DNA of 64,000 nt, taken from NCBI RefSeq assembly GCF_021155765.1, contig NC_060118.1, positions 6,944,001 to 7,008,000 on the forward strand. Direction: 5' to 3'. Position 1 is the stretch's first letter; every line of letters begins with the position of its first letter. The notes under the pieces were generated by a model that was given only the letters and a program-made list of their open reading frames with translations, did not search any database and had not been told where the DNA came from. The stretch is from Diprion similis (taxonomy: Eukaryota; Arthropoda; Insecta; Hymenoptera; Diprionidae). The translations under genes were made by a program, and so were the position numbers. Below are positions 19,201-39,673 of this stretch, piece by piece.

Positions 19201-22200
19201 AGTAAAATAATAATTATAACTGAGACATCAATAGAATAATAATGGTATGAGTAACGATAATATAGAATTGTTTTATGAAAAGGAAAATGCAAGTTATTTA
19301 TTATTTGAGATATGGAGCGGTCGCTGCGGTCTAAAAAATAAAACTAGACCAATTGCAAAGTTTGTTTAACATTTTAGTTTTCCTAAAAAATTCAGCTTTC
19401 TGTGAATTGATGAACAAATAACTTCTCTCTAATTAAACGTATCAGCTATTTTTTTTATAGTGAATGACACTCGAATATTGCTAAAAAATGATTAGGCTAA
19501 GTAAACAAGTGGATAATCAGAAACGATGTCTGCGAATGATGGCAGAGGATCTTTCAAGAGTCCAAGATTCAAAGAGGGGGGGGATCCGCATAAAGGGAAT
19601 AGCTGCTGACTGCTACTGTTAATAATCTGCGAATCGTTTCAGTGTTAACATCCTCGATATAATTATAAAAACAGAGTAAGAAAGTGGCAGTTTTGGCTTT
19701 TATGATAAGGTAATTAACATTTTGTCAATCTACAACGGTACATATTACTAATTTCTTACTTCTTTTGCATTTGATTACTGTTCATTTACATTTTAAAATC
19801 AGATGAGGCGTGACTTTATTTTACTAATTATATGTATTTGATAAAAGATCTAAAGTTTAATTTGAAATGTGTATTTCTTTACATCTTTTACACGACACAG
19901 TATCATTATTTTACATATTTAATATTCAGTACCGGTTTAACCAAGAGCACTTAATATTGAAATGGTAAAATGTAATTTATTTCATTGTAATTTAAAACTT
20001 GAAAACGACGCAATTGTTCGCGGGAATTTCACTCCGTTCTGTATGTTTAAACACATTTCATTGTTCTCCGTTGAAATTGATCAGGAGTTTTGTTACGTTA
20101 TATTGCCAAACTGAATTGGTAGGGAAATCTCCATTCAATCATTATGGGTGTAAAATTAAAATGAGCAAATAATGATTCAAATATAAAACCTTTTTTATAA
20201 CGTAAATAAAAGTGAAAAGTATATATTATAAAAATAATTACAAACAAGAATTCTCATTAAACTGTCAATAAATCTTTTATCATTACTAACGCAGTCCATA
20301 GAATGATTTATCTAATCTGAGACAATTTTATTTTATTCAATATATAAATTACGTTGTCATTATAACTTGAATCACGATAAAATTATTATATTTCTAGGGG
20401 TCAAAGCTCAAGCATGGCGCCTGCGGCGGTCGCTGTTTTCGTAATATGTCTGTTCGTAGAATCGTTCTCAGCTCCGAACGGGTGTATCAGATGTGTGACA
20501 TCGAATACTCGCGATGCCTACCAAACAAACAGTGGATACGATTGGGTAAATAGCAACAAATTATCGCAGAGATCAGAAAACTTGGAAGATTTGACACAAA
20601 CAGTAGAGAGTGAGCTCGCTGGATCTCACAATCAGTTAGCCTTTGACAATACCAGGCCTGGAAACTGGACGGATGTGAATCAGTATCGAACAGCTGACGG
20701 TCATGGTAGGGTATACGAAGAGCAAGGTCAACGAGTTCAAGGACCAAGCCGAGTGAGATATTACAAAAAAAATTCAACCTCCAGCTACAGCAGCGGAAAC
20801 CTAGATGGTGTTGAAGCACCGTCTTTATCTAGGTTCGAATCTGAGAACATTGGATACGGTAGTGGTTCAACAGCGCGGTATAGTTTTGGCCGGGAACAGA
20901 ACTCTGCTTACGATCAATCTGCAATCCGTGAAAATTCATACGCTTCGCAGGGCCCTTTGCATTCGGCAAATCCACTCACTAGTTCGAATGAAAGACTAGA
21001 AAGTCATCGCCGACGTGTTTTTAGCAGTCAGTTTGGGGAAAATGATTACGGTTTAAACAGTCAGTCGACGCAGCAAGGATTGTCTGAGCAGGAACGACTG
21101 AGGCCAAGAAACTGGACCACAGCTAACACCTATAGAACTGACGGAGGTAACGGCAGGGTGTACGAAGAACGAGGACAAATTGTTACAGGACCGCGACAAG
21201 TTCGTTTCTACAAGAAAAATTATACCTCGACTTACAGCTCGGGTGATGGGTTTCCACACGTAATTCCAGAGTCTGATGGAGCTACAAACTTTGAAAAGCA
21301 AGAACAGCAATTGCAGAGAGAGATTAATCTTATAGGGTCAGAGGTTTATCAACCTGGTCATCGTCCCTCAAATAGTTATTATGCGCAGCAACCTTCTGGA
21401 AATTATGGGCAGACGAGTCACACTGTGGACGGTACAAACGTCAGACAGGTGTCAAGAACAGGTACTCACGGGTCGCGGTACTACAATAACTTGGGATTAG
21501 ATTCCCAGCAAACACAGCATCGTGCTGTTGACAGCGAAAGTCAACGTCTACTTCAGACCGAGAGTAGTTCTAATGGGCAAATAGAAAGTGGAAACCAAAG
21601 GGGTCAAACTTATGGCTACATGACCGGCAGCTATGACAATACCAATGGATATGGTACCGAGGGAGTACGAAGAACGATTTACCCACAATCAAATATTCGG
21701 CAAACTCAGCGTCATTATCTTTCTCGGTCTGAGCTAGAAGAATACATGCGCAATTATGGATCTCAAGGTCGGAACCAAGGTCCATTGTCTACCGGTGATT
21801 TGAATCGTGAGCAGCAAACCCAGCATTCTGTATCACATAACGCAAGAATACGACCAGGCCAACTACGGCATTACGATCAATTTCAAACCACCTCCTCACA
21901 GTCGTCGTCACAGTATCCCAATATTGATCGAAGATTTCTTCAAGCTGATGAGAATGGAGCAACACAACAGATACATGGTGTGAGCCAGGATCAAACTGTC
22001 AGTAATAATTATAACAGGAATTACAGAATTCAATCTGGAACACTAAGTACACAGGGTATTGATTTAGGGCAGCTGGCACATGGACCTGATTGTACAGACA
22101 CTGCACATGGACATACCTTGTATCAGCAATCCCAATATCGTACACAATATAGACGGAATACTAAGCCTGAAGATTTTGGTCAACAAACCCAACAAGTCAA

Positions 22201-25200
22201 CCAGCATACGGAAGATTTTAACCAGGAAACAGAAGACCTTACCCAACAGACGGAAGACTTTAGTCAACAATCGCAGGGTGTCATTCAGCAGTTGGGAGAT
22301 CTTACCCAACAAACAGAGGACCTTACTCAACAAACGGAGGATCTTACCCAGCAAACACAGGACCTTACCCAACAGACGGAGGACTTTAGTCAACAATCGC
22401 AGGGTGTCATTCAGCAATCGGGAGATCTTACCCAACAAACGGAGGATCTTACCCAGCAAACACAGGACCTTACCCAACAGACGGAGGACTTTAGTCAACA
22501 ATCGCAGGGTGTCATTCAGCAATCGGGAGATCTTACCCAACAAACAGAGGATCTTACCCAGCAAACACAGGACCTTACCCAACAAACGGAGGACTTTAGT
22601 CAACAATCGCAGGGTGTCATTCACCAATTGGGAGATCTTACCCAACAAACAGAGGATCTTACTCAACAAACGGAGGATCTTACCCAGCAAACACAGGACC
22701 TTACTCAACAAACGGAGGATCTTACTCAACAAACTGAGGATCTTACCCAGCAAACACAGGACCTCACCCAACAGACGGAGGACTTTAATCAACAATCGCA
22801 GGGTGTCATTCAGCAGTCGGGAGATCTTACCCAACAGACAGAGGACTTGACGCAACAAACAGAGGACCTTACCCAGCAGACGGAGGACTTTAGTCAACAA
22901 TCGCAGGGTGTCATTCACCAATTGGGAGATCTTACCCAACAAACAGAGGATCTTACCCAGCAAACACAGGACCTTACCCAACAAACGGAGGACTTTAGTC
23001 AACAATCGCAGGGTATCATTCAGCAATCGGGAGATCTTACCCAACAAACACAGGACCTTACTCAACAAACGGAGGAGTTTAGTCAACAAACGGAGGATCT
23101 TATCCAGCAAAAACGGGACCTTACTCAACAAACAGAGGATCTTACTCAACACACTGAGGATCTTACCCAGCAAACACAGGACCTTACTCAACAAACAGAG
23201 GATCTTACTCAACAAACTGAGGATCTTACCCAGCAGACGGAGGACTTTAGTCAACAATCGCAGGGTGTCATTCAGCAATCGGGAGATCTTACCCAACAAA
23301 CACAGGACCTTACTCAACAAACGGAGGAGTTTAGTCAACAAACGGAGGATCTTATCCAGCAAAAACGGGACCTTACTCAACAAACAGAGGATCTTACTCA
23401 ACACACTGAGGATCTTACCCAGCAAACACAGGACCTTACTCAACAAACAGAGGATCTTACTCAACAAACTGAGGATCTTACCCAGCAGACGGAGGACTTT
23501 AGTCAACAATCGCAGGGTGTCATTCAGCAATCGGGAGATCTTACCCAACAAACAGAGGACCTTACTCAACAAACGGAGGATCTTACCCAGCAAACACAGG
23601 ACCCTACCCAACAGACGGAGGACTTTAGTCAACAATCGCAGGGTGTCATTCACCAATTGGGAGATCTTACCCAACAAACAGAGGATCTTACCCAGCAAAC
23701 ACAGGACCTCACCCAACAGACGGAGGACTTTAATCAACAATCGCAGGGTGTCATTCAGCAGTCGGGAGATCTTACCCAACAGACAGAGGACTTGACGCAG
23801 CAAACAGAGGACCTTACCCAGCAGACGGAGGACTTTAGTCAACAATCTCAAGGTGTCATTCACCAATTGGGAGATCTTACGCAACAAACAGAGGATCTTA
23901 CCCAGCAAACACAGGACCTTACCCAACAAACGGAGGACTTTAGTCAACAATCGCAAGGTGTTATTCAGCAATTAGGAGACCTTACCCAACAAACACAGGG
24001 CTTTACTCAACAAACGGAGGATCTTACCCAGAAAACACAGGACCTCACACAACAAACAGAGGATCTTACCCAGCAAACGCAGGACCTTACCCAACAGACG
24101 GAGGACTTTAGTCAACAATCACAGAGTGTTATTGAGCAATCGGCAGACCTCACTCAACAAACTGAGGATCTTACCCAGCAAGCACAGGATCTCACACAGC
24201 AGATACGAGATTTCAGGGAACTCCCTCAACAAACACAAGGATACATTCAACAATTGCAAGATTTGACTCAAGAGACAGAAGATCTTCCTCAACGAACAGA
24301 AGGATTTATCGTAGAATCCGGAAACCTTGCCCAGCAAGCTGAGGATCTTACCCAACAAACTGAGGATTTTACCCAGCAAACGGAAGATCTTACGCAACAA
24401 ACTGTAGATATGACACACAGTCTTCAACCAGAATCTGGAAATTTCATTGATGTAGGGGAGCCAAACTATGTGCCACATGTATCAAATTTTAAAGATCTGC
24501 ATCAATCATTTTTCGATCGCGAAAAACAAGACAATAGTCGTCAACAGAGAGAGAAGTTCTCTCCACAAGAGAAAGATCTCACCCAACAAACACAAGATCT
24601 CAACCAAGAAACACAGGGACTCACTCAAGAAACGGAAGACCTTTCACAGCAAATTACTGGTGGAAATGCAGACTTTGGACAGCAGTCTAATTGGGGCTTT
24701 GATCGTTTCCAAATCGGAGATCAACAGGTTGAAGATCCAAACCAAAGAACACAGGGTCTTACTCAAGAACCGGAAGACCCTTCACAGCAAATTACTGATG
24801 GCAATGCAGACTTTGGGCAGCAGTCTAATTGGGGCTTTGATCGTTTTCAAGTTGGAGGTCCACAGGTTGAAGATCTAAACCAAAAAACACAAGGTCTCAC
24901 TCAAGAAACAGAAGACCCTTCACAGCAAATTACTGGTGGAAATGCAGACTTTGGACAGCAGTCTAATTGGGGCTTTGATCGTTTTCAAGTTGGAGGTCCA
25001 CAGGTTGAAGATCTAAACCAAAAAACACAAGGTCTCACTCAAGAAACAGAAGACCCTTCACAGCAAATTACTGGTGGAAATGCAGACTTTGGGCAGCAGT
25101 CTAATTGGGGCTTTGATCGTTTTCAAGTTGGAGGTCCACAGGTTGAAGATCTAAGCCAAAAAACACAAGGTCTCACTCAAGAAACAGAAGACCCTTCACA

Positions 25201-28051
25201 GCAAATTACTGGTGGAAATGCAGACTTTGGACAGCAGTCTAATTGGGGCTTTGATCGTTTTCAAGTTGGAGGTCCACAGGTTGAAGATCTAAGCCAAAAA
25301 ACACAAGGTCTCACTCAAGAAACAGAAGACCCTTCACAGCAAATTACTGGTGGAAATGCAGACTTTGGACAGCAGTCTAATTGGGGCTTTGATCGTTTCC
25401 AAATCGGAGATCAACAGGTTGATGATTTTAGTCAACAATCAACAAGTAACTCAGAAATTTACAATGGAAATTTAAATCAATTCAGACAAGAACCAGTACT
25501 GGGCTACCCATCACAAGTAGGAATACAGCCTGCACCGAAACCAAAACCAAAACGTCCAAAACACAGAAACTCTTATCCCACCCAAGAATTCTCCACAGAA
25601 CAAGAACAGCCAGTAACGGATAACGTACAGAAGAGTGCTACAGAAATCAGGGTATCTGCAACATCAAACAGAGGAGATCAACCCAGTTATGACACAATTA
25701 CCGATACAGAACTATACGATAGGGATGAGTTGCATCGAGTTCAGCCAACTAAAACTGGGGGTCGCCGGAGAAATGGGTATTATGGTGTTCAACGCAAGCC
25801 TCAAGTTAACCAACGACAACATGGGGATGATTCACTAGTAGAGCATGTTCTAAACGAGGTAACGACCAGCCAAGAACCAACTTTAAGGTACACCCACATA
25901 AATCAACTTCAGGTGAAGAACCAACAAAATTCAGGTGATTCGAACGCAAATCCAGAAAATGTACAACCGATTCCTCAGATTGAATCCAGATTTGTAGAAG
26001 CATACGGAGCAAACGGACCATACAACACTGACCATGATCCAGATTTATTTGATGCTGTTACACCAAATCCGAGTACAAGATTGCCACCTCTTATTGACGA
26101 CAAGCCTCCTTTCGACGTTATTTGGTCCAGTATAGTTCCAAAAATTTTTACTAGTACTGCTGCTCCACCTACAACACCAGAGCCCGCAACTACGACCACC
26201 GAGGTCTCAATTCCAACAACCACTGAGCCCCCAATTTCTACAACTACAACACCCGACCTCCCAACTACAACTGCTGCTCCCTCGTTCTGGCGTAGATTTG
26301 GAAACAGAGTCAGTAACACAATAGAGAAAGCCAAGGAACGTGCAAGAAGTTTCTTTGGTTAATTAGTGCTTATGAATGACTGCAGTTTTCTTAGTAGTTC
26401 TACTAAATATCAACATTCTTTCATTTCGACTAAAAATAATGGTACAGTCATAACTAGTTCAGAGTTAATATCATAGCTATTTATCAATAATATAAATGTA
26501 GGACGTTTTAACAAAAGGTGAGACCAAAGAATCTTACGCACCATGAGTTACTACAAACAGTTCACATTTCGTTTTTTTCTTTCGCGCTATATTTTGCTTC
26601 TAAGCCGTTCGATGCTTTGTAGGTATTCTTACTTGAAGGTCAATTTTTTTTATGAAGTCAACTATTGCCGAAATTTGTATACTGTGTCAGGTAGTCAATG
26701 GTGAGAAAAATGTTTGAATGTATGTTTGAATTAATTGATTCTTCAGCAGTCTGGGAAAAAAAATTTTCATAAATAATATACAGTAATGATATGAAATATT
26801 GTTAATACAAAGAATAACTGTTATATTTACTTAGTATTAAAAATTTCGTGACATTTAATGACTGTGTGAGAAATTGTAATGCATTGTAATTTACGTTTAC
26901 TTCGGTGAACAAATCTTTTTATACAATTAAGCAACTGTTTCTTTACTCCCTCAAATTAAACTAAGCAAAAAGTAAAAATGAATTCTTAGTTTTATGCAAT
27001 AATGAACTGTTGTTGTTGTTGTTGTTGTTGTCGTTTTTTTTTTTTTTTGGTAAATATTGCAGAAATAAAAGAGTAATCTAATCTGACTGACATTGAGCAC
27101 GGAGTAAGAGTATTGACCCAACGATAATTATGAGCAGTTATCTCGACTTGCTTGGAAGTAGTCAGAATTTAATTTGACAGACATTGGCATTGATAGGAAG
27201 AATCTGAAGACTTTGTACTTGTACTGTTACATTTTTTCTGTTTTCAACGTAAGACACATATAATTATAAAATTTTTGTCAACGAATGAATAATTCAGGTT
27301 TGAAATCATGAAAATTTATTAAGCACTTTATGATAAATAATGAATTACTCATTTTAAACAAATATTGCTATAAAGTTATAGGCAATAATCGTTAAGAAAT
27401 ATAGCAAGCAATCAAAGTATGGCTTAGAGTAAACAAATGCTTTTAAGGAAAGTTTGCGGTATTTATCCAGTGCAAAGTGAAAATTGATTAGCCACCAAAA
27501 GATAGGAATTTATAGTTCTACTGGTTAATTTTTTTTGTTCAAATGTTCTATGGTTAATTCATTCATTAAGCAGGTATCATCGTTATTGTTTATTCTTTTC
27601 TTAAGATCGACAATAACATTTGATCTGTATGATTTTCCAATTTACAAATATTTCTATTAATGAGAAAACTAAGCAGTTGCACAGGAAACAAATTTGCAAT
27701 AATTTTTTCGAGAACTAAAAGTAGCTTAAAATTTTTTTTTTATTGAAGGGTATCTAATGCAGTTCTTGAAATACATTCAGACTATAATTTTTTTTCTCTA
27801 AAATTCGATTTAGTTTTCTTACGGTTGAGTTGAAAATAATTTTGGACAGTAATTTGAACCAATGTTGAAGATGATGAATACTTACTTCAGGAAGATTTTT
27901 GAAGAATCTGATAAAGCTCTGTTGCGTCGCATTGTCTGAAAGTAAAAATAATGATTTTGTAGTCTGAAGTAAATGTTGTCTTTCGAGTTAGTGCGGTTAT
28001 GTTTTTCATTTACTGACCCATGTTGAACTGTTGATTTGGTTGAACAGCCAT
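13269..28051 (-). CDS. MSH2: DNA mismatch repair protein MSH2 (15 coding exons)
   Basis: MutS homologue, partner of MSH6 in nuclear mismatch recognition. Exons in coding order: 28018-28051, 27886-27935, 17717-17840, 17346-17602, 17056-17223, 16789-16977, 16014-16408, 15601-15815, 15077-15394, 14729-14950, 14362-14594, 14193-14284, 13784-14006, 13573-13665, 13269-13424. They total 2,769 nt in consistent phase, 922 aa (human 934). The start MAVQP and the [19 protein letters not shown] junction match the N-terminal mismatch-binding domain. Walker [10 protein letters not shown] is at residues 667-675, Walker B VIIDE ends at 747, followed by the GRGTST signature and THFHE. The two tiny N-terminal exons lie ~10 kb from the rest, across an intron (17841-27885) that contains another gene on the + strand. 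The last intron uses a 24-T tract as its pyrimidine stretch. Confidence 0.95.
13427..13450. repeat. A24/T24 homopolymer at an MSH2 splice acceptor
   Basis: 24 consecutive A on the + strand, so 24 T on the MSH2 strand, ending at the acceptor AG of the last MSH2 exon. It serves as the polypyrimidine tract. Confidence 0.85.
17841..20413. other. MSH2 intron 2, part upstream of the nested gene
   Basis: AT-rich intronic DNA. A pyrimidine-rich acceptor ending at 20398 (TATTTCTAG), 15 bases before the nested gene's ATG, suggests that gene has a noncoding first exon within this stretch. A TATAAAA-like box lies near 19665. Neither is proven. Confidence 0.4.
20414..26362 (+). CDS. Giant secreted heptad-repeat protein nested in MSH2 intron 2
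   Basis: Single exon, 1,982 aa, unrecognised family. In order: a signal peptide ([20 protein letters not shown]); two copies of a ~45-residue module with NWT, GRVYEE and VRYYKKN-type motifs (about residues 84-130 and 233-278); a Gln/Ser/Tyr-rich linker; ~107 seven-residue repeats of DLTQQTE type (587-1338); six copies of a 46-residue repeat containing [13 protein letters not shown] (about 1387-1674); a Pro/Lys-rich linker; a Thr/Pro mucin-like segment; and a cationic, probably amphipathic helical end ([20 protein letters not shown]). NxS/T sites (NWT, NST, NYT) fit secretion. It is most likely an extracellular structural or mucin-like protein (cuticle, silk, glue or eggshell); the role is inferred. 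It is antisense to MSH2. Confidence 0.85.
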   Translation: MAPAAVAVFVICLFVESFSAPNGCIRCVTSNTRDAYQTNSGYDWVNSNKLSQRSENLEDLTQTVESELAGSHNQLAFDNTRPGNWTDVNQYRTADGHGRVYEEQGQRVQGPSRVRYYKKNSTSSYSSGNLDGVEAPSLSRFESENIGYGSGSTARYSFGREQNSAYDQSAIRENSYASQGPLHSANPLTSSNERLESHRRRVFSSQFGENDYGLNSQSTQQGLSEQERLRPRNWTTANTYRTDGGNGRVYEERGQIVTGPRQVRFYKKNYTSTYSSGDGFPHVIPESDGATNFEKQEQQLQREINLIGSEVYQPGHRPSNSYYAQQPSGNYGQTSHTVDGTNVRQVSRTGTHGSRYYNNLGLDSQQTQHRAVDSESQRLLQTESSSNGQIESGNQRGQTYGYMTGSYDNTNGYGTEGVRRTIYPQSNIRQTQRHYLSRSELEEYMRNYGSQGRNQGPLSTGDLNREQQTQHSVSHNARIRPGQLRHYDQFQTTSSQSSSQYPNIDRRFLQADENGATQQIHGVSQDQTVSNNYNRNYRIQSGTLSTQGIDLGQLAHGPDCTDTAHGHTLYQQSQYRTQYRRNTKPEDFGQQTQQVNQHTEDFNQETEDLTQQTEDFSQQSQGVIQQLGDLTQQTEDLTQQTEDLTQQTQDLTQQTEDFSQQSQGVIQQSGDLTQQTEDLTQQTQDLTQQTEDFSQQSQGVIQQSGDLTQQTEDLTQQTQDLTQQTEDFSQQSQGVIHQLGDLTQQTEDLTQQTEDLTQQTQDLTQQTEDLTQQTEDLTQQTQDLTQQTEDFNQQSQGVIQQSGDLTQQTEDLTQQTEDLTQQTEDFSQQSQGVIHQLGDLTQQTEDLTQQTQDLTQQTEDFSQQSQGIIQQSGDLTQQTQDLTQQTEEFSQQTEDLIQQKRDLTQQTEDLTQHTEDLTQQTQDLTQQTEDLTQQTEDLTQQTEDFSQQSQGVIQQSGDLTQQTQDLTQQTEEFSQQTEDLIQQKRDLTQQTEDLTQHTEDLTQQTQDLTQQTEDLTQQTEDLTQQTEDFSQQSQGVIQQSGDLTQQTEDLTQQTEDLTQQTQDPTQQTEDFSQQSQGVIHQLGDLTQQTEDLTQQTQDLTQQTEDFNQQSQGVIQQSGDLTQQTEDLTQQTEDLTQQTEDFSQQSQGVIHQLGDLTQQTEDLTQQTQDLTQQTEDFSQQSQGVIQQLGDLTQQTQGFTQQTEDLTQKTQDLTQQTEDLTQQTQDLTQQTEDFSQQSQSVIEQSADLTQQTEDLTQQAQDLTQQIRDFRELPQQTQGYIQQLQDLTQETEDLPQRTEGFIVESGNLAQQAEDLTQQTEDFTQQTEDLTQQTVDMTHSLQPESGNFIDVGEPNYVPHVSNFKDLHQSFFDREKQDNSRQQREKFSPQEKDLTQQTQDLNQETQGLTQETEDLSQQITGGNADFGQQSNWGFDRFQIGDQQVEDPNQRTQGLTQEPEDPSQQITDGNADFGQQSNWGFDRFQVGGPQVEDLNQKTQGLTQETEDPSQQITGGNADFGQQSNWGFDRFQVGGPQVEDLNQKTQGLTQETEDPSQQITGGNADFGQQSNWGFDRFQVGGPQVEDLSQKTQGLTQETEDPSQQITGGNADFGQQSNWGFDRFQVGGPQVEDLSQKTQGLTQETEDPSQQITGGNADFGQQSNWGFDRFQIGDQQVDDFSQQSTSNSEIYNGNLNQFRQEPVLGYPSQVGIQPAPKPKPKRPKHRNSYPTQEFSTEQEQPVTDNVQKSATEIRVSATSNRGDQPSYDTITDTELYDRDELHRVQPTKTGGRRRNGYYGVQRKPQVNQRQHGDDSLVEHVLNEVTTSQEPTLRYTHINQLQVKNQQNSGDSNANPENVQPIPQIESRFVEAYGANGPYNTDHDPDLFDAVTPNPSTRLPPLIDDKPPFDVIWSSIVPKIFTSTAAPPTTPEPATTTTEVSIPTTTEPPISTTTTPDLPTTTAAPSFWRRFGNRVSNTIEKAKERARSFFG
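22172..24427 (+). repeat. 21-bp tandem repeat coding ~107 heptads
   Basis: Tandem 21-nt units code [21 protein letters not shown] and GVIQQSG/GVIHQLG. They are arranged in a 105-nt higher-order unit of five heptads. The 752 codons equal 107 heptads plus one three-residue interruption (near 24216). A 252-bp segment starting at 23033 is repeated almost exactly from 23285, showing recent expansion. Confidence 0.93.
24574..25434 (+). repeat. 138-bp tandem repeat (46-residue unit)
   Basis: Six copies of a unit containing [30 protein letters not shown] and [10 protein letters not shown]. Successive copies start 138 bp apart (for example 24893 and 25031). Central copies are nearly identical, the outer ones more diverged. 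Confidence 0.93.
26363..27885. other. 3' flank of the nested gene and rest of MSH2 intron 2
   Basis: AT-rich, no ORF of note. Includes a TGT triplet microsatellite (27008-27031) followed by a T run. Confidence 0.5.
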
Positions 28052-28662: not shown

Positions 28663-31600
28663 TTATGCTGCGAGCAGTCCCAAAGTTTGCAGACATATTT
28701 GAGCCGCTTCTGCTTTAGCTTGCTTCTTGTTCGGGCTGGCGACACTTGGTTTGTATTCTATCCCATTTACTTTCACCTGCATTCATATTATCACGTTATC
28801 GGAGAATTCAATTTTGTAATGGTTGTTGAAAATCAGAAAATATTTATGTCCTGTTGGCAACAGAACTCTTTACCTTGAATAGAAAATTCTTTTTATGGTC
28901 CGGTCCACACTCAAAACACAGTTCATATACCGGTGCTCCAAACTTTCGTTTCGAACAATATTCACCCAACAACGAAACTGGATGTTTTCCTAAAAGTTTA
29001 ACTTGATTAAACGTACATGCATTGATCAGATTGGTTCACAACTGTGTAATTACTTAAAAAAATTCAGACTGGAAGAAAAACCTTTTGGAGTATTAGAGTA
29101 TTAAGTATTTAATATTTATCCCTGATCAATAGTCAAGAATAACTGAACAAAGATGATAGAATCTTACAACATCACGTGTAGCGTCACCAAGATTTGAAAT
29201 TCCCAAATACGGACAGGTTATTCATTCATGAATAAGAAATAAATGATTCACCTGAATAATACTCCACGAAAACTAAGATTTTTCTCTCAATCTAGGTAAA
29301 GTGATTTCGATCTATCTTTTCTTGAAGCTGACTTACCCTCAAGAGTCTTGATCGTTGGCACAGCTGGCTTTACTGTCTTTCCAACTCGACTATCGATATC
29401 CTGATCAGAGACAAGACCTCGTTTGTCAAGCTTCACTTCCAACTGTAACGGCACTAAAGTGCCCTCCTTATTTTTGCCTAAACCCTCACCAGGTCTCCAT
29501 CCCATTTTTTGCAGTAGGGCCATTCCCATTCCACCAGAGACAGGTTGTGCAGTTAACAATTGATCCTAAGTAATTAGTATAATTTCGTTGTAAATAATGC
29601 AGCAGGAATTACCTATTTGGTTTTGACTAACACAGAAAATTAAGCAAGTCTCAGTTCATCTCACGAGAAATTTATGGTGTATATCTATATAGTGGTGTTG
29701 TGTAATGCTTGAGTGTAAAGTAAAGGAGAAATGTAACATTTCTCATTCATTTGCCAAGGTAAATTGAAGATTGTTACGAGTATGTATATGATTCCTTGTT
29801 CGCTAGTGTCAACTTTTAATCAGAGAGAGTCATTATTCGAGGAAAAAACCAAGTTCAAAAACGTTTAAAAGAAATCTAAATTTTCCAACAAATTTTTTTT
29901 TTTTTTTGATAATACTTACCAAACAAAGATCAACGAGCACTGCGCTGCCGAGGTTGTTTCTTCTCCAATGTAGTTATGTGCCTGTAACAAACCCTCAGGT
30001 GGATACAGACCAATGCTAACTAGTCTCAGCTCGTCAACTCTTTATTTCAAATAAATTAAAATCAAAACATTTTCTTTTATATTTATGAAACACAAAGATG
30101 AGCAGCTGAAGATTAATTAGCATTGATCTCACAGGAGCAAGTTGCCAGTTGTATAGATATACAACAAGGTTCATTCGTCGATGTCGGAGAGGTGAAAATG
30201 TAGCAAAGTGAAGAAAAAATAAATAGCATCGACGAATGAATCTGTGTTGATGACAAGTGATCGTCATTTTTTATTTTTTTAACTATATAGTTATCATTAA
30301 TTCGTTTATGGCAACAATGCTCTTGTGTCCGTGCAGACACAGAGTCCACCTCTGCACGAGAAGTGGTCTGTGCCTGCAACACAGTCTCGGTTAGACCAAA
30401 GTCATTCTTTATGGATGGTCTGGACTGAGACTGTACCTGAAAACTTGCTATAGGCAATTTAGATAATTTAGACCAAACAATACAATCAAATAGTGGGCCT
30501 AAGCGATGCATAATGTGATAAGTGAAATAAATGAAATGTTACACTAGTTTTTTTTTTAAATCGTCCTAACGACAAGATTTCCAAAGTTACTTGTTACATT
30601 GTAATAATCTAGACCCACGATGTTAAAGGTTTGTTTTTAAAAAGAAACAAACACTAGTAATCAAATGTTATACATAGGATGTCCAATTATAATCGACGCT
30701 ATTGTCATGTAAAAAATGAAGGCAAAAATGTTACTTTGAGAATTTTGTGTCGTCAAAATATGTATTTTAATTATTTGCATTTTAGAACATGAAAGTGAAA
30801 ATTTGATATTAAAGTATGCAAGTAAATTGAATAGTGATTTTTCATTGCACATTCGATTCGATGCAATTTGCAAATTTTTCCCAGCATTTACCTATTAAAA
30901 AATCTGATCAACTAAGAAAGCTGTACTTAGGGTGCTAAATTGTATTCGCTGTAAAGTGCTGAAACTTAAATTACTGGGACAAATGAAAAAGACAAAGATA
31001 ATCGATCGTGTTACCTTACGGGCCCATGCTTGATAGCCAGCAGATAGTTCAGAGGCCGATAGCACTTTGACTCCAGTGCTACCCGTGAACTGACCTGGCA
31101 TCTGTTTACTCTCAGCCCAACTCTTCATCTGAACAGTAATTATTCGAATTAATAATTTTAAATTACATCCAACGTGTCTTGTTGTATTATTCTTTTGATT
31201 ATTGCTTGCAGTGAAAATTATTTACCCCACTTTGAGCTCTGTACATTTCATTCATTGCTTGTACGTCGTTTGGATTTTCTCTGAGCTTTCTCATCGCAGC
31301 TAATCTCTGAGATACGATGCAGCCTATGTCAACATTCTGAAACATAAACGATATAATGGGTTAACGGTTCACTGTGCCATTTCAAATGTTTGAAAGAGCT
31401 TTTTTGCGTTACATACCTTCAATGGGGAAGGCTCTGAAAATATGGGCAATTGTGGTGTAGGTGTAGGTGGAGGTATAGGTGCAGGTGCAGGTGTAGGTAC
31501 AGATGCATGTACAGGTGCTGCCGCTTGTGTTGGCGCTGGCATTATTGCAAGCGGCTCAGATGGAGCTGTCGCTGGAGCAGTCGGCTTTTTCGGTCCAGGC

Positions 31601-34577
31601 TTCTTCGGGTTAACTGGCACCCACTCGTTCTCTGTGTACAAAGAACGGGAGAAAATTTTAATGCGCTTATACCACATATATCCAGAGTTTCAAGTAGGCT
31701 GAATAATTTTTTTAATGTATTTTACGAAAGAACATAAAAGCTCCTAGATTTTTTTTTTGCATAAACGAATGTTTATTCCACAACTGTGAATATCAGTTAC
31801 ACATTCACTTACCAGTTTTTCTGTGAAGTTGTCCGCTAGAAACTGGAAACTGTAGTCGTAACTGGATCGACGACTCTGCTGCTTTTTCTTGGAAAGTTTT
31901 TGTCGGTAACTGTTTTGCATCCTGCAATAGCAATATGATCATTGAGCATGAAACTTTGTTCTAAAGCCTTGTTCGATCGTATTTCAATGTCGCGACCTTG
32001 CGATATTTAATCACGAATTTGGAATGAGTAAAGTTTCGTATTTGATTGTTATTCAGAAGCTACTGGAATCAACATTCCTACACACGCTGCCAACTCACCC
32101 GAATGTTCATGATTATTGAATTGGGCCTATCTTTGACAAGGAACGGATGATGAAAGCCTTTTTCAGAATTACTGCCATCGTCGTCTGACGATATGCTGGA
32201 CAGTTCTCCCAAGGCTTCGGATTTTGATAAGGATTTACAAAAATCTGTGAAATCAACAGACAAAATTAGGATAGTCCATCAGTATTTTTTTTTCTAAGGA
32301 TCATTACGCTTTCAAAGATCATCACCTGTGAGTTCATCGACAGACTTTCCTCCAGCTTGTATAGCGGCAATCACTTTGTCTTGTTGAGCAAGCGGAAGCG
32401 TTCCTTGCTGAATCATGCTTATAGCATTCTTTCTAGCAATTTCGAGCAGCTTTTTTTTATCAATCTCTATTCTTTCCCTGAAAATTTTGTATAATAATAG
32501 AATCAACACGACATCATTTTGAGCTGAATGCTGTAATATTTATCTCACGAATTTTAGGTAAAATAAATGCATGACTAACTTTCTTTCTCGGCTCCTTGTT
32601 CTTCCACGATTATTACGCCTGTCTCTGCTTCTATCCCGACTCCTGCTTCTGTACCTATCCTTGTCTCCGTCTTTGCTGGCTTTCCGTCTATCCCTATTCC
32701 ATTCGTGATCCCACGTATCTCTGCTTTTCTCTCTATCTCGTCTGTCTCTGCTTTTCTCCCTAGATCGTTCCTTGCCGTTGCTCCTGCTGCGCTGAGATCT
32801 GGAATGTGTTTTTGACTTGGATCTTTTTCTCTCACGAGACCCGCTTTTCCGCTGATGTTTTTCTCCGTGATCTTTGTCGTTGGAATCCCTATGCGTCTTG
32901 TGTTCTCTTTCACGTTTGCCGTTTCTCAACTTAGACTTCATTTCCTCCCGACGCTTCTTTTCTTTCTCTTTTAAAATCATCCGCAGATCATTTTTTGGCG
33001 TTAAACCCACTTGCTGCAACCTTAGTATCGGACTTGGCGTTCTTACAATTGATCTATTCGATTCAGGGCTCAAGGATGGCGTTCCACGATCATCGCATCG
33101 TGACGGACTTGGACTCAGCGTTGGAGTCCTATCGATACCACTGCTATCAGACAGTTCACCATCTTCCATGCGAGCAGCCTTCTCCCTTGCTTTGTTCTCA
33201 ACTTCTTTCACGACTTCACTGTAAACTATGCTATGCTTTAGGTTCTTGATAAGAATTTTTCCCGGTGCTGCCTGCTTCGGATTTTCTGTATAAAAAAAAG
33301 TATACTTTAATTAGTGATTTCTTACTATCAATACCTTACAGATGCTGAAAACGAAAATCGATAACTGACAAACAAATGACTAATAGGAAGAAAATGAAAT
33401 CGATACAATAACATGTTATTAGTGGTTCTCTAGTATACTTTGCCCTTCCCACAAATATAGGACTGATCCCTCTTTGCCGACGGTACTTTCAATTAGTAAA
33501 AAGTCATTTTTATATAATCGATTATTTGCTATTGGAGGAGGAATGTTGATGATTCAAATGGTATAAAGTGTAGACATTTGTTACTGAAAATCATGTCTAA
33601 AATAGCGGAAAAATTTGCAAATAAGAATTCAATAGTATAATCCTTATTACTGAATCCTAATATAGGAAATCCTTGTTTAATATAAAATATATTTAACAGT
33701 ATGAAACTTATGGATGAATGAATTGTTTTCGATTTATTTTCTAAAAAAAAGTATGATTGTAAAATTTGATTTTAATACGCACCAAGTAATCTTGGCATAA
33801 CTATGTCCTTCGAGTCATCCTTGTTAATTTTATTTGCTACGAAAGGTTGTCTGAGACTTGATGGTTCCAGAAGTGCCTCATCCTGACTCGCTGAATGATC
33901 AGGCTTTGCTAATCCTGGCTCTGTTTTGATCAAAGGAATTTCTGCGAGCTTTGAAACTTTCTTATTCGCATTGCCTTTAGTAGCTTTATCGATTTCATCG
34001 TTGAGGTAGTTTTCAGATATTTTGGAGTTCTCCTTAAAGCCATCACCATCGATCTTTTGTACTTTTTGTTTCTGCTCATCTGATTCGGAAGTTCGACTCG
34101 ACGAAGAATCTCGCTTGCGCTTAGATTTCTTTTTATGCTTTTTTCGCTTCTTCGAGCCTGAAAATTAAGCGCAAAATAAGAGCAAAATAAAAAGGCGACG
34201 AACTTGAGATTCATTGAACTAATATGGAATCGTTGATCCTAAATAAATGTCTCCTCACCATCTCCAGCTTCGCTATCGCTATCGGATGAATTTTTCTTAA
34301 TTTTCTTCTTGCGTTTTTTGTCTTTGTGTTTGTGCTTCTTCTTGCTCTTCTTCTTCTTAAGCTTAGCCGATTTCTCGGTCTTTACGCTTATATCTTTGGC
34401 AATCTCGTTATCGCCGCTTCCAGGTGAAATTATTCCTTCGTCGGCGTCAAACGTACTAAAAAGTTCGGTCAAAATTTCATTTGACGATTTCTCGGGTAAC
34501 CCTGGCTCCGGTTTAATTTTAACCGCATCTACACCCACCGTCGTAATTAAATTTGCTATATCGAATAAATTGGCCAT
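28663..34577 (-). CDS. Son: SON-like splicing factor (RS region, G-patch, dsRBM)
   Basis: Nuclear-speckle splicing cofactor. Coding exons in order: 34259-34577, 33783-34157, 32580-33285, 32326-32477, 32099-32244, 31813-31921, 31417-31631, 31226-31336, 31015-31128, 29337-29565, 28874-28989, 28663-28776; 2,706 nt, 901 aa, all phases consistent. The N-terminus is acidic then Lys-rich. Exon 3 codes an Arg/Ser/Asp-rich RS-like region. Conserved SON segments follow: IDKKKLLEIARKNAI, MKSWAESKQMPGQFTGSTG, and a G-patch (GMALLQKMGWRPGEGLGKN) starting at about residue 757. A double-stranded-RNA-binding domain ends the protein (about 826-901, CSKRKFGAPVYEL...KKQAKAEAA). Human SON is far longer because of a central repeat region, absent here as in other insects. 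Exon 7 codes a short Pro/Ala repeat. Confidence 0.92.
30170..30240. repeat. 14-bp perfect hairpin in SON intron 9
   Basis: TTCATTCGTCGATG (30170-30183) and its exact complement (30227-30240) with a 43-base loop, inside the 1.4-kb intron 29566-31014. Confidence 0.5.
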
Positions 34578-34832
34578 CGCTAATTTTCTTTCCTAACGAT
34601 TTTTAATAAAACTCCGTACACCTGCAGAATTTAAAAAGATAAAGTTGTCAAAACGCAATCATATCCATCCCCCCTCATATTTTGTGTCCTGACCCAAACA
34701 CCAGATTCACACAGCCAGTGTTACCAACTGCGGAGTAAAACATATCGCTATAGCAGCATGCAAAAATCTTTAAAAATCCCTAGGTATTACACCCCAGAAA
34801 TCTCCTGTATTCACGAACGAACAATCTACTGA

Positions 34833-35643: not shown

Positions 35644-38600
35644 ATGGATCCGGCTGTCTTCCCCGAGGAAATATGGATTAAAATTCTTTTATACTGCGAC
35701 GTGCCTGACATTATTGCCTTCGGGAGCACATGTAAATACCTCAGGAAAACATCGGACACCGATTACTTGTGGTAAGTTTTGAGGTTATGTTCCTCAAACG
35801 CCCTTCGTACTTTACCGTGCCAAGGCCTTATTATTAAGAATGACAAGCTAATTCTTTAATGATTTTTCAATCCTCAACACTTATTGAGGTATTATTACAA
35901 GACTATGTAGTATATCCCAAAAAGTTTCTCAGGCAAATGATCATAAAATGATGGTGTAGCATGTACAACTGAAAGTAATCAAGGCAAATTTTTTCCAAAT
36001 ATTACCTTCAACATAGCCTGCAATTACACAACCAAAATTCGAACCATGGAAACCCACCTATCAACGAATTGACGACTCGTTGTCTTGTCTTGATCAGGAA
36101 TTTGATAAGTTGGTCGGTAATTCAACTATAAGATAAATTTCAAAGTGAAGCAAAAAATTGCCTCATAAAGATCGTTTAAATGAAATCATTTTCCAATACC
36201 AAAAGTATGTGATTCAACAATTTCGAAGAATTTAAGGGGGTGCTCTGGTCGATTTCGACGTTGACTTATATATTTTTAAATATCGAATTCCACATATCTC
36301 AAATGCGGAAAAGGGCTCAACAACATTATTTAATACACACTTCTGAACAAAAACATTCCAACTGTAAAAAAATGAAGAAATCGCATGGATTCTATGAATT
36401 TACTATTACGATTTCATAGAATCCGTGCCATTACTTTATTTCTCTGTCAAATGAAAATGTAGTGGAGCATTTTCGTTTAAAAAGAAGTGAATTATATCTA
36501 ATAGTGAATAAAAATTTTTTCAATGTATTTAAATTTGTCATCCTTTATCTAAGATATTTGACTTTTTTCTAAGTTTTCCTAAATCTGTATAAAAAGTTAT
36601 GTCCATTACAGTGGACACGTAATGTTCTTTAACTTGACAACGTTGCATTGATAAGTGCCGAGTTCATATATTCTGAAAACGTAAATTAAAATTGATAAAA
36701 ATATATTCTAGGCAAAAAACTTCATTTTAAATAGCCTACAAAATCAGATCTTTTTTCTCAGATAAGATGGCATCTTTTTTTTAATACTTTAGCTGCACTT
36801 TCTCAACTAGAACACCACTCAACGGGACACTATTCAATATATTTTGATTCAGATAGGTATTGGACCTGTTGACAAAACCCATCCCATAAAAACCAACTTA
36901 ATGAGTGAAAATTTGAGTATGAATTTTTTAAATGTATGCTCACTGGAATAGAAAAACATTCTGATGAAAGTTTCAAATTCTCATTTCTACGTGAAGACAT
37001 TCCCCCTTTTTTTTTCCTAAGTAAACGAGAAGTCTTTCATTTATAACAATTGAAATTTAAAGTTGCAATTTTATATCCTTATGCAGGGTATTTTTCTTTG
37101 TAAAAATTAAAACCAACCAACTCCAGCCGCACCGATGAATTCTAGATTTAATAAAGCATGCACGATTCGGTACATAAAAACTTTTTTATTTCAGGAAAAT
37201 CAAATGGCTGCAGCTCATATCCAAAGTACAATTCAAATTTCCTGACATGAAATGTCTCCAGTTACTAAGCGTTAGTTTTAAGGCGATGTGCTACCGACTT
37301 CACATGGTAGTGACGCTGGGGGAGAGCGTTCCATTCCCTAAGTGCTACCACTGCAGTGGTTACACGTGTCAAAGGAACTGCGTCGAAGGTTCGAGTTCAA
37401 AGGTGGTCATTGAAATCGGAAACAAATACACATGGGTCATAACACCTCATTTCGGTCTAAGACGGCATTTCTCTATGTTTGGCATACCGAAATGCAACAC
37501 AGCTAACGCAGAGGTGCAAACACAGGCGCCGAGCATAGCGAGTAGTAGCAGCAGGTTAAAAACGGATGCAAAATCAATTGCCAAAAAGCTGAAACTGTTG
37601 AGGCTATCCGAGCTAGCAACGGCAAAAATTCCACGACCCAGTGGACCGTTTTGCGTATTTTGCAATCCAGTAAAATTGTATCGTGAGAAAAAACGACTCG
37701 CATCGCACCAGAATGATGTACAAAAATACTCTAGTACAAATCCTATTTATCAAAAATTATTGAATGGATATTGCGCCGATACCGTGGAGGTTCTCGGCAT
37801 TCCTAACGTCGATGTTGTTAGTCCGGCGGAAGCCCTCCTAAGCGACGGAACTTTTCCGGTACTAAAGACTTTTGTCGATCACTTGTTTCATCAGATGGGT
37901 TTAACGGCGACGTTGAGAAAACCAAACGCTGTACTTATGTTCTGCGAACCACTCGCCATGCATCCGTTACTCAGAAAACAGCTACTTCATTACTTATTTC
38001 AAGAGGTCAAAGTTGCCAGGTAATTATTTTCACTGAACTTACAAGAATACACTCAAGTGCAAGTAATTATGTAGCCAGTTCTTAAATATTTGAAGTAAAA
38101 TCTTCACTGATGTAAAGAAAAGATTCACTTTTTATGTTCAATACTACCAATTTCAACTCTTTCACGATCTTTTCAGGGTATGTTTAGTTCCAAAACCCTT
38201 GGCTGCTTGCGCAATGCTCGATGTAGAGACTTGCGTTGTAGTAGACAGCGGCGCTCTGAGTACAACAGTTGCTGTCGTCATCGGAGGAAGGGTGATGCCT
38301 GATCGGTGGCGTCTATTACCTGTCGGTGGATATCATGTAGCCCATCATTTGAAACAAGCGATGCATTGGCAGCCAAAAGAATACCATCAAATTCCTGTTT
38401 CTTATCTGGACACTATGGCTGTTAAGGAGAGATGCAGATTGAGCTATAACATCGAAAATGAAGAGCGGAAAAGAGGGCCAACCAGAAGAGAACACATTAA
38501 TCTTAGGGTCGATAGTTATGCAGATTACAAACAGTTTTGGGTAGGTAAAAAGTAAATGAGAAAGTGATTGAAAAGTATGAAATCTGTTATGGAAATCTTT

Positions 38601-39673
38601 CGCATTCCATTGATTGATATTAAATTAAGTAAGTTGTAATTGAAAATTGATATGCTTAGTTGAAAGGCGTTGAGATCAAATCAAATACTTCAATGTTCGG
38701 AAGGAAGCCTGTAAATTCTCTGTAGCGATTGGTCAAATATTTGTTATTATTACCCAATAATAGATTGATAGAACAAGAAATTTATTTTGGCAGAGAGTAT
38801 CGCTGGGTTCTGAACTGTACATCGCACCTGAGATGATGTACGTTAGCCTCGGGCTGCCCGAAGTGATAAAGGAAGTGACTATGGGCCTTTCGGAAGAGTT
38901 GACCCAGGATTGTCTCTCCCATATTCTGTTGACCGGAGGTAACACTGATTTGTCGGGATTTGAGCTCAGGCTATCTAAAGATTTGCGTGAACTACTTCCG
39001 GAGCACAGTCCAATCTTGGAGGTCAGAAGTTGCCCAGGAACTCACAGTTGGAATGTCGCTATGGGATCAACTTACGTACCTTTGGCCGTACATCCTGGTA
39101 TGTCGTCGCTTTGTTTGATAAACATGATTTTTTTTTACTTTGATCGATCAGTTTTTTAGATTGTTTCAGGAATTGAGAAAATGAGAATCAAATTATAGAC
39201 GTTTCTCAAAAATAATTCTAAAAGTCTCTCGTTATTTTTATGTACGGCGTAAATATAGGGAATTGAATATCACTAAAGCATAATGAGAAAAGCATTAAAT
39301 GGATTTAGGAAAAAGGTTTAAGGAAATTTGTGTCTTCGTTTGAAATACCTGAAATTACAAGGCTAAAAGCATATTAATTATTGTGAATTCTCATGCTGAA
39401 CAATTAACATCGTCCAGCTTCAATGTCGATTTGAAAATTATTCCGCAAGATTTAATTGTATTTGATACGGAAAGTACTTTGCCGTGATTTTCTCGTTCAT
39501 CTCAGAACCACCATTTATTCACTTCCCACCTTTTGTATCCATTTATCATTGCATTGATAAACCATTCGTTTGTTCGACTTGCAGACAAAACGCCACCAGA
39601 ATATGTGGAAGGGAATCCGTTCTGGTTATCGCGGGAAGAGTACGTCTTATTTGGATGCGAATCGCTTGAATAG
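35644..39673 (+). CDS. F-box / actin-related fusion protein
   Basis: Exons 35644-35771, 37195-38019, 38177-38540, 38794-39097, 39585-39673; 1,710 nt, 569 aa, consistent phases. An F-box (FPEEIWIKILLYCDVPDI..) occupies about residues 5-45. The rest aligns with the actin fold: a phosphate-1-like VVIEIGNKYTWV (~112), KTFVDHLFHQM (actin subdomain 3 region), phosphate-2-like VVVDSGALSTTVAVV (~337), the nucleotide motif LLTGGNTDLSGFELRLSKDL (~484), SWNVAMGSTYVPLA and a C-terminal FWLSREEYVLFG. Actin loops are replaced by a Cys-rich patch (CYHCSGYTCQRNC) and CVFCNP. Inference: a substrate receptor or scaffold joining SCF ubiquitin ligase to an actin-like module. The exon 3/4 junction has an alternative donor four bases later. 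An in-frame upstream Met at 35497 exists, but the start at 35644 places the F-box at the N-terminus. Confidence 0.82.
36383..36428. repeat. 16-bp hairpin in intron 1 of the F-box/actin gene
   Basis: GCATGGATTCTATGAA (36383-36398) pairs with 36413-36428, with one mismatch and a 14-base loop. Confidence 0.5.

Follow-up and report, generated by a model that had tools for sequence, protein, structure and literature searches.

A five-exon gene model within the 64,000-nucleotide window (the whole stretch of DNA analysed, to which all positions refer) predicts an insect protein of 569 residues that joins an N-terminal F-box to an actin-like domain. The protein is probably a non-canonical actin-related protein (ARP) that serves an SCF ubiquitin ligase as substrate receptor; we infer this role, which reaches beyond the sequence, from the domain architecture and by analogy with plant SUSA2. 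An F-box combined with an ARP in an animal, as the earlier note had proposed, is supported at the level of the gene model, and the 7tm_6 and Chitin_bind_4 families in the genome identify the host as an insect.

Gene structure and coding potential

The predicted coding sequence begins at the first methionine codon of the exon 1 frame (ATG at 35644) and runs to a stop at 39673, with the reading frame maintained across four introns, all of the GT-AG type, and without internal stop or frameshift (Table 1). The donor of exon 1 reads GTG/GTAAGT.

Table 1. Exons and first intron of the F-box-actin gene.
Feature	Positions	Strand	Content
Exon 1	35644..35771	+	Residues 1-42 plus two bases of codon 43; carries the start codon and the F-box
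Intron 1	35772..37194	+	Phase 2; 1,423 bases
Exon 2	37195..38019	+	Completes codon 43 and continues to residue 318; holds the linker, CYHC at 93-96, the N-terminal third that is not recognised (CVFC at 196-199) and, from about 282, the first part of the actin homology
Exon 3	38177..38540	+	Up to residue 439; phosphate loop 2 (DSG, 341-343), K401-E402
Exon 4	38794..39097	+	Residues 440-540; adenosine-binding motif LTGGNT (485-490)
Exon 5	39585..39673	+	Residues 541-569 and stop; FWLSREEYVLFG aligned to actin MWISKQEYDESG

The frame of exon 2 stays open for 281 codons, which none of 20,000 base shuffles did. When scored for codon usage, using 1,956 codons from neighbouring genes for training, the proposed frame was the best of six in exons 1-4 (0.124, 0.026, 0.132 and 0.179), and in exon 5 (28 codons) it reached 0.049 compared to 0.077 in another frame. 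Relative to a background of 240 scores from 300-base pieces in the three plus-strand frames (mean -0.173, 95th percentile -0.044, maximum 0.078), exon 2 was weakly coding-like, exceeding the 95th percentile and falling below the maximum.

The join between exons 2 and 3 is supported by the best actin-matching stretch (residues 282-382), which spans their junction at residue 318. The join between exons 1 and 2 is supported at the gene-model level, by the intron phase, the splice sites and the lack of any other visible first exon. The locus could alternatively comprise two transcription units, an F-box gene with missed downstream exons and an ARP gene starting from Met61 or from an unseen exon, which would fit with a join known from the gene model, with the 1,423-base length of intron 1 and with an exon 2 that by itself gave no Pfam match at E 0.1. 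We consider this very unlikely, as the junction from 35771 to 37195 restores a single frame and rebuilds a TGG codon, exon 2 encodes no methionine ahead of residue 61, and intron 1 contains no ATG-started plus-strand frame longer than 38 codons among the listed frames of 25 codons or more. A short alternative first exon inside intron 1, below that listing floor, is possible.

The F-box domain

The profile search suggested as a check in the earlier note placed both the F-box and the Actin family above their curated Pfam cut-offs. In the full protein, F-box (PF00646) matched residues 6-44 with 25.4 bits (cut-off 20.5) and F-box-like (PF12937) matched residues 7-44 with 25.8 bits (cut-off 24.3), bearing out the clear F-box that had been read in the first exon. 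Exon 1 by itself gave an F-box score of 28.6 bits; the score is thus not raised by joining exon 2. A six-frame search of the genome yielded at least 34 F-box matches, with that of the F-box-actin gene at 30.3 bits (above cut-off), and the same genome encodes one match to SKP1 and 26 exon matches to the cullin family.

The actin-like domain

The Pfam Actin family (PF00022) matched the full protein with 62.7 bits (cut-off 27, E 3e-17) in two stretches, and of the individual exons, exon 4 scored 31.9 bits, above the 27-bit cut-off, and exon 3 scored 22.3 bits, below it. Against an actin-family profile built from seven proteins of the same genome, some of them incomplete, the full protein scored 78.7 bits (best of 200 shuffles 3.2 bits) and residues 282-569 scored 79.5 bits, whereas residues 1-281 (-1.7 bits) and 106-281 (-2.2 bits) were within the range of 200 shuffles. 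Using hhalign, residues 290-564 were aligned to actin 104-367 with a probability of 98.85 and 19% identity over 256 columns. The later part of a predicted actin fold is accordingly present in residues 290-564, corresponding to the second half of subdomain 1 together with subdomains 3 and 4. The N-terminal third of actin appears to be either beyond recognition or replaced, and its first phosphate loop and D-loop would lie within residues 106-281. With E values of up to 1 allowed, NCBIfam returned six matches, none close to its cut-off, and the models predicted for two exon pieces, each folded alone from a single sequence, were far too low in confidence for use (mean pLDDT 35.9 and 32.6). Two CxxC pairs were observed, CYHC in the linker and CVFC in the unrecognised part of the protein; as a guess, these could bind zinc.

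The protein was compared with the nucleotide-site residues of actin. D154, S155, G156, G182, G301 and G302 are retained, Gln137 is replaced by Lys (K324), D157 by Ala and H161 by Thr, and K213-E214 are matched in the hhalign alignment and off by one in that from MAFFT. The change of D11 to Glu falls in a doubtful stretch, where the alignment of phosphate loop 1 is not confident. Since exon 2 lacks a Pfam match and residues 106-281 score like shuffled sequence, the motifs that can still be identified are phosphate loop 2 (DSG) and the adenosine-binding GG. The actin fold with phosphate and nucleotide motifs described in the earlier note therefore holds for the later part of the fold, DSG and GG, and is not confirmed for the first third and phosphate loop 1. 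Its designation of the protein as an actin-like ATPase is not supported, because phosphate loop 1 is unrecognisable and Gln137 is a Lys; judged by these residues, ATP hydrolysis would be weak or absent.

The divergence from actin also bears on the alternative that the protein is a chiefly cytoskeletal non-canonical ARP, for example of the germ line, with the F-box serving in its own turnover or in SKP1 binding outside SCF. Compared with the genome's own conventional actin, just 14.7% of positions are identical (52/354), or 19% over the 256 hhalign columns, and the D-loop region, which serves in actin filament contacts, is unrecognisable; on these grounds we regard a cytoskeletal role as unlikely. 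It would be in line with the non-canonical ARPs of Drosophila and mammals, which PMC8291977 describes as often young and fast-evolving and expressed mostly in the male germ line.

Relationship to other actin-related proteins

The searched genome comprises 269 Mb in 60 contigs, and the window lies within a 14.3-Mb contig. The F-box-actin protein is encoded in a single copy, its best other match being the Arp6 gene (25% identity over residues 265-508, E 8.7e-8), followed by two matches with E of about 0.02 in the Arp10 and Arp5 genes. Separate genes were found for Arp1, Arp2, Arp3, Arp5, Arp6, the INO80-type Arp8 and Arp10/11. The Arp4/BAF53 class is represented by two genes on one contig, and for each of them the closest PDB sequence is Actin-like protein 6A. 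Nine of the 14 actin-family loci (L005-L013, with the Arp4/BAF53 pair as L006 and L008 on contig C10) were compared with PDB sequences, and the remainder were judged by translated pieces (L004), translation (L014), length (L015) or Pfam scores only (L016 and L017). As Arp1-6, the INO80-type Arp8 and Arp10 all have genes of their own, the F-box-actin protein constitutes an extra, non-canonical ARP. The possibility of a canonical ARP (1-6, 8 or 10) misread as a fusion was rejected, since another gene matches each class far better.

Arp6 is a subunit of SWR1/SRCAP. In addition to being the best paralogue in the search of the protein's own genome, it was the sister of the F-box-actin protein in an eight-row tree (97/96), and its own gene (L007; E 9.2e-134 to PDB Arp6) has no F-box match among those listed. 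The placement is unsure owing to the very long branch of the F-box-actin protein (4.11 changes per column), and in the PDB sequence search Arp2 chains (E 1.5e-8) came first, followed by Arp1, Arp9 and Arp6 among the best 60 of 147 rows. Such a branch might also be expected if the fusion were non-functional, either decaying or put together only recently. That explanation appears highly improbable, as the 569 codons are free of internal stops and frameshifts, the splice sites are GT-AG and the codon usage of exons 1-4 is coding-like.

Other non-canonical animal ARPs, Arp53D among them, are likewise divergent extras next to the canonical set. Arp53D has a 40-residue N-terminal tail, with no F-box mentioned in PMC8291977, for which a count of the term F-box gave 0, whereas the insect protein carries an F-box; the term is likewise absent from the text of PMC2441452.

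Comparison with plant ARP8/SUSA2

The insect gene shares its architecture, an N-terminal F-box followed by a C-terminal actin domain encoded by one single-copy gene, with plant ARP8/SUSA2 (At5g56180) as described in PMC7562919 and PMC11096116. The spacing of the nucleotide-site residues is also similar, being 55 and 86 residues in SUSA2 (G258-K313-G399) and 58 and 86 in the insect protein (G343-K401-G487). In actin itself the equivalent spacing is 57 and 88. As the values are thus near those of actin too, the likeness to SUSA2 says little about origin. The two proteins differ between the F-box and phosphate loop 2: with the SUSA2 F-box at 40-86, by the published numbers, this distance is 172 residues in SUSA2, compared to 299 in the insect protein (from the Pfam F-box end at 44 to G343). 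The insect protein thereby has about 127 extra residues, which include the two CxxC pairs, with the F-box borders set by different methods in the two cases.

The F-box and actin combination is called plant-only in PMC7562919 and exclusive to multicellular streptophytes in PMC11096116, whose Fig. 3 covers the green lineage and is silent on animals. An insect gene model with the same domain order contradicts a restriction to plants. A literature search, with most subscription journals outside its coverage, returned no paper in which we recognised a description of an F-box-actin protein from an animal. Some insect database entries may bear the name 'actin-related protein 8'; if this is so, the gene may already be present in annotation, unremarked.

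We see an about even chance that the animal F-box-ARP is either convergent with plant ARP8, an SCF actin-fold receptor having been invented twice, or the product of a fusion that predates plants and animals and was often lost. Independent fusion, as suggested in the earlier note, ancient shared fusion and old transfer are each possible. A recent transfer from plants is not favoured because the actin part is 15-19% identical to the insect's own actin, which is below the approximately 30% to conventional actins reported for SUSA2, a published figure obtained by different methods. The insect gene makes it possible to test if ubiquitin ligases took up an actin fold as substrate receptor on two occasions or on a single early one.

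Among the prokaryote genomes and viral contigs covered, a single-protein search with a reach limited to close relatives found no relative of the protein; two stretches fitted a pattern and encoded no relative. Contamination is unlikely, given the 14.3-Mb contig and a genome with 103 exon matches to 7tm_6 and 87 to Chitin_bind_4, which represent insect odorant receptors and cuticle proteins, respectively.

Proposed function

The preferred reading as an SCF substrate receptor is based on an F-box and an Actin domain above cut-offs in one frame across four GT-AG introns, an actin match far above 200 shuffles, and the presence of SKP1 and cullin matches in the genome. It also draws on SUSA2/ARP8, a protein with the same domain order which is reported to bind ASK1, a homologue of SKP1, and to remain able to complement when its nucleotide site is mutated (G258A, K313A, G399A/G400A), so that the tested function survived changes at these positions. 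Weighed against the receptor reading were the flat F-box score on joining exon 2, the undetectable N-terminal third of actin, the weakly coding-like codon usage of exon 2 and the unusable fold models.

In the proposed mechanism, the joined exons would be transcribed, the F-box would bind SKP1, and the actin-like half would hold the substrate as a scaffold and not as a working ATPase, with the N-terminal third and the Cys-rich linker perhaps providing a further binding surface. The substrate of plant ARP8 is called unknown in PMC7562919, and the insect gene would offer an animal system in which to seek one.

Genomic neighbourhood

The same window encodes BIR, RING, MutS, G-patch, Ras, ThiF/Rhodanese, proteasome and LSM pieces, and scanning it with Rfam and for tRNAs returned nothing. 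The minus-strand frames at about 29287-34592, which by eye make up a single gene with a G-patch domain at its end, are arranged head to head with the F-box-actin gene (35644, plus strand) at a distance of about 1 kb, and a promoter common to the two genes is possible. Further upstream, an open plus-strand frame of 1,993 codons (20381-26362) encodes a repetitive protein with a start that resembles a signal peptide by eye, and contains tandem arrays at 22201-24201 and 24594-25426 (6 copies of 138 bases, 95% match).
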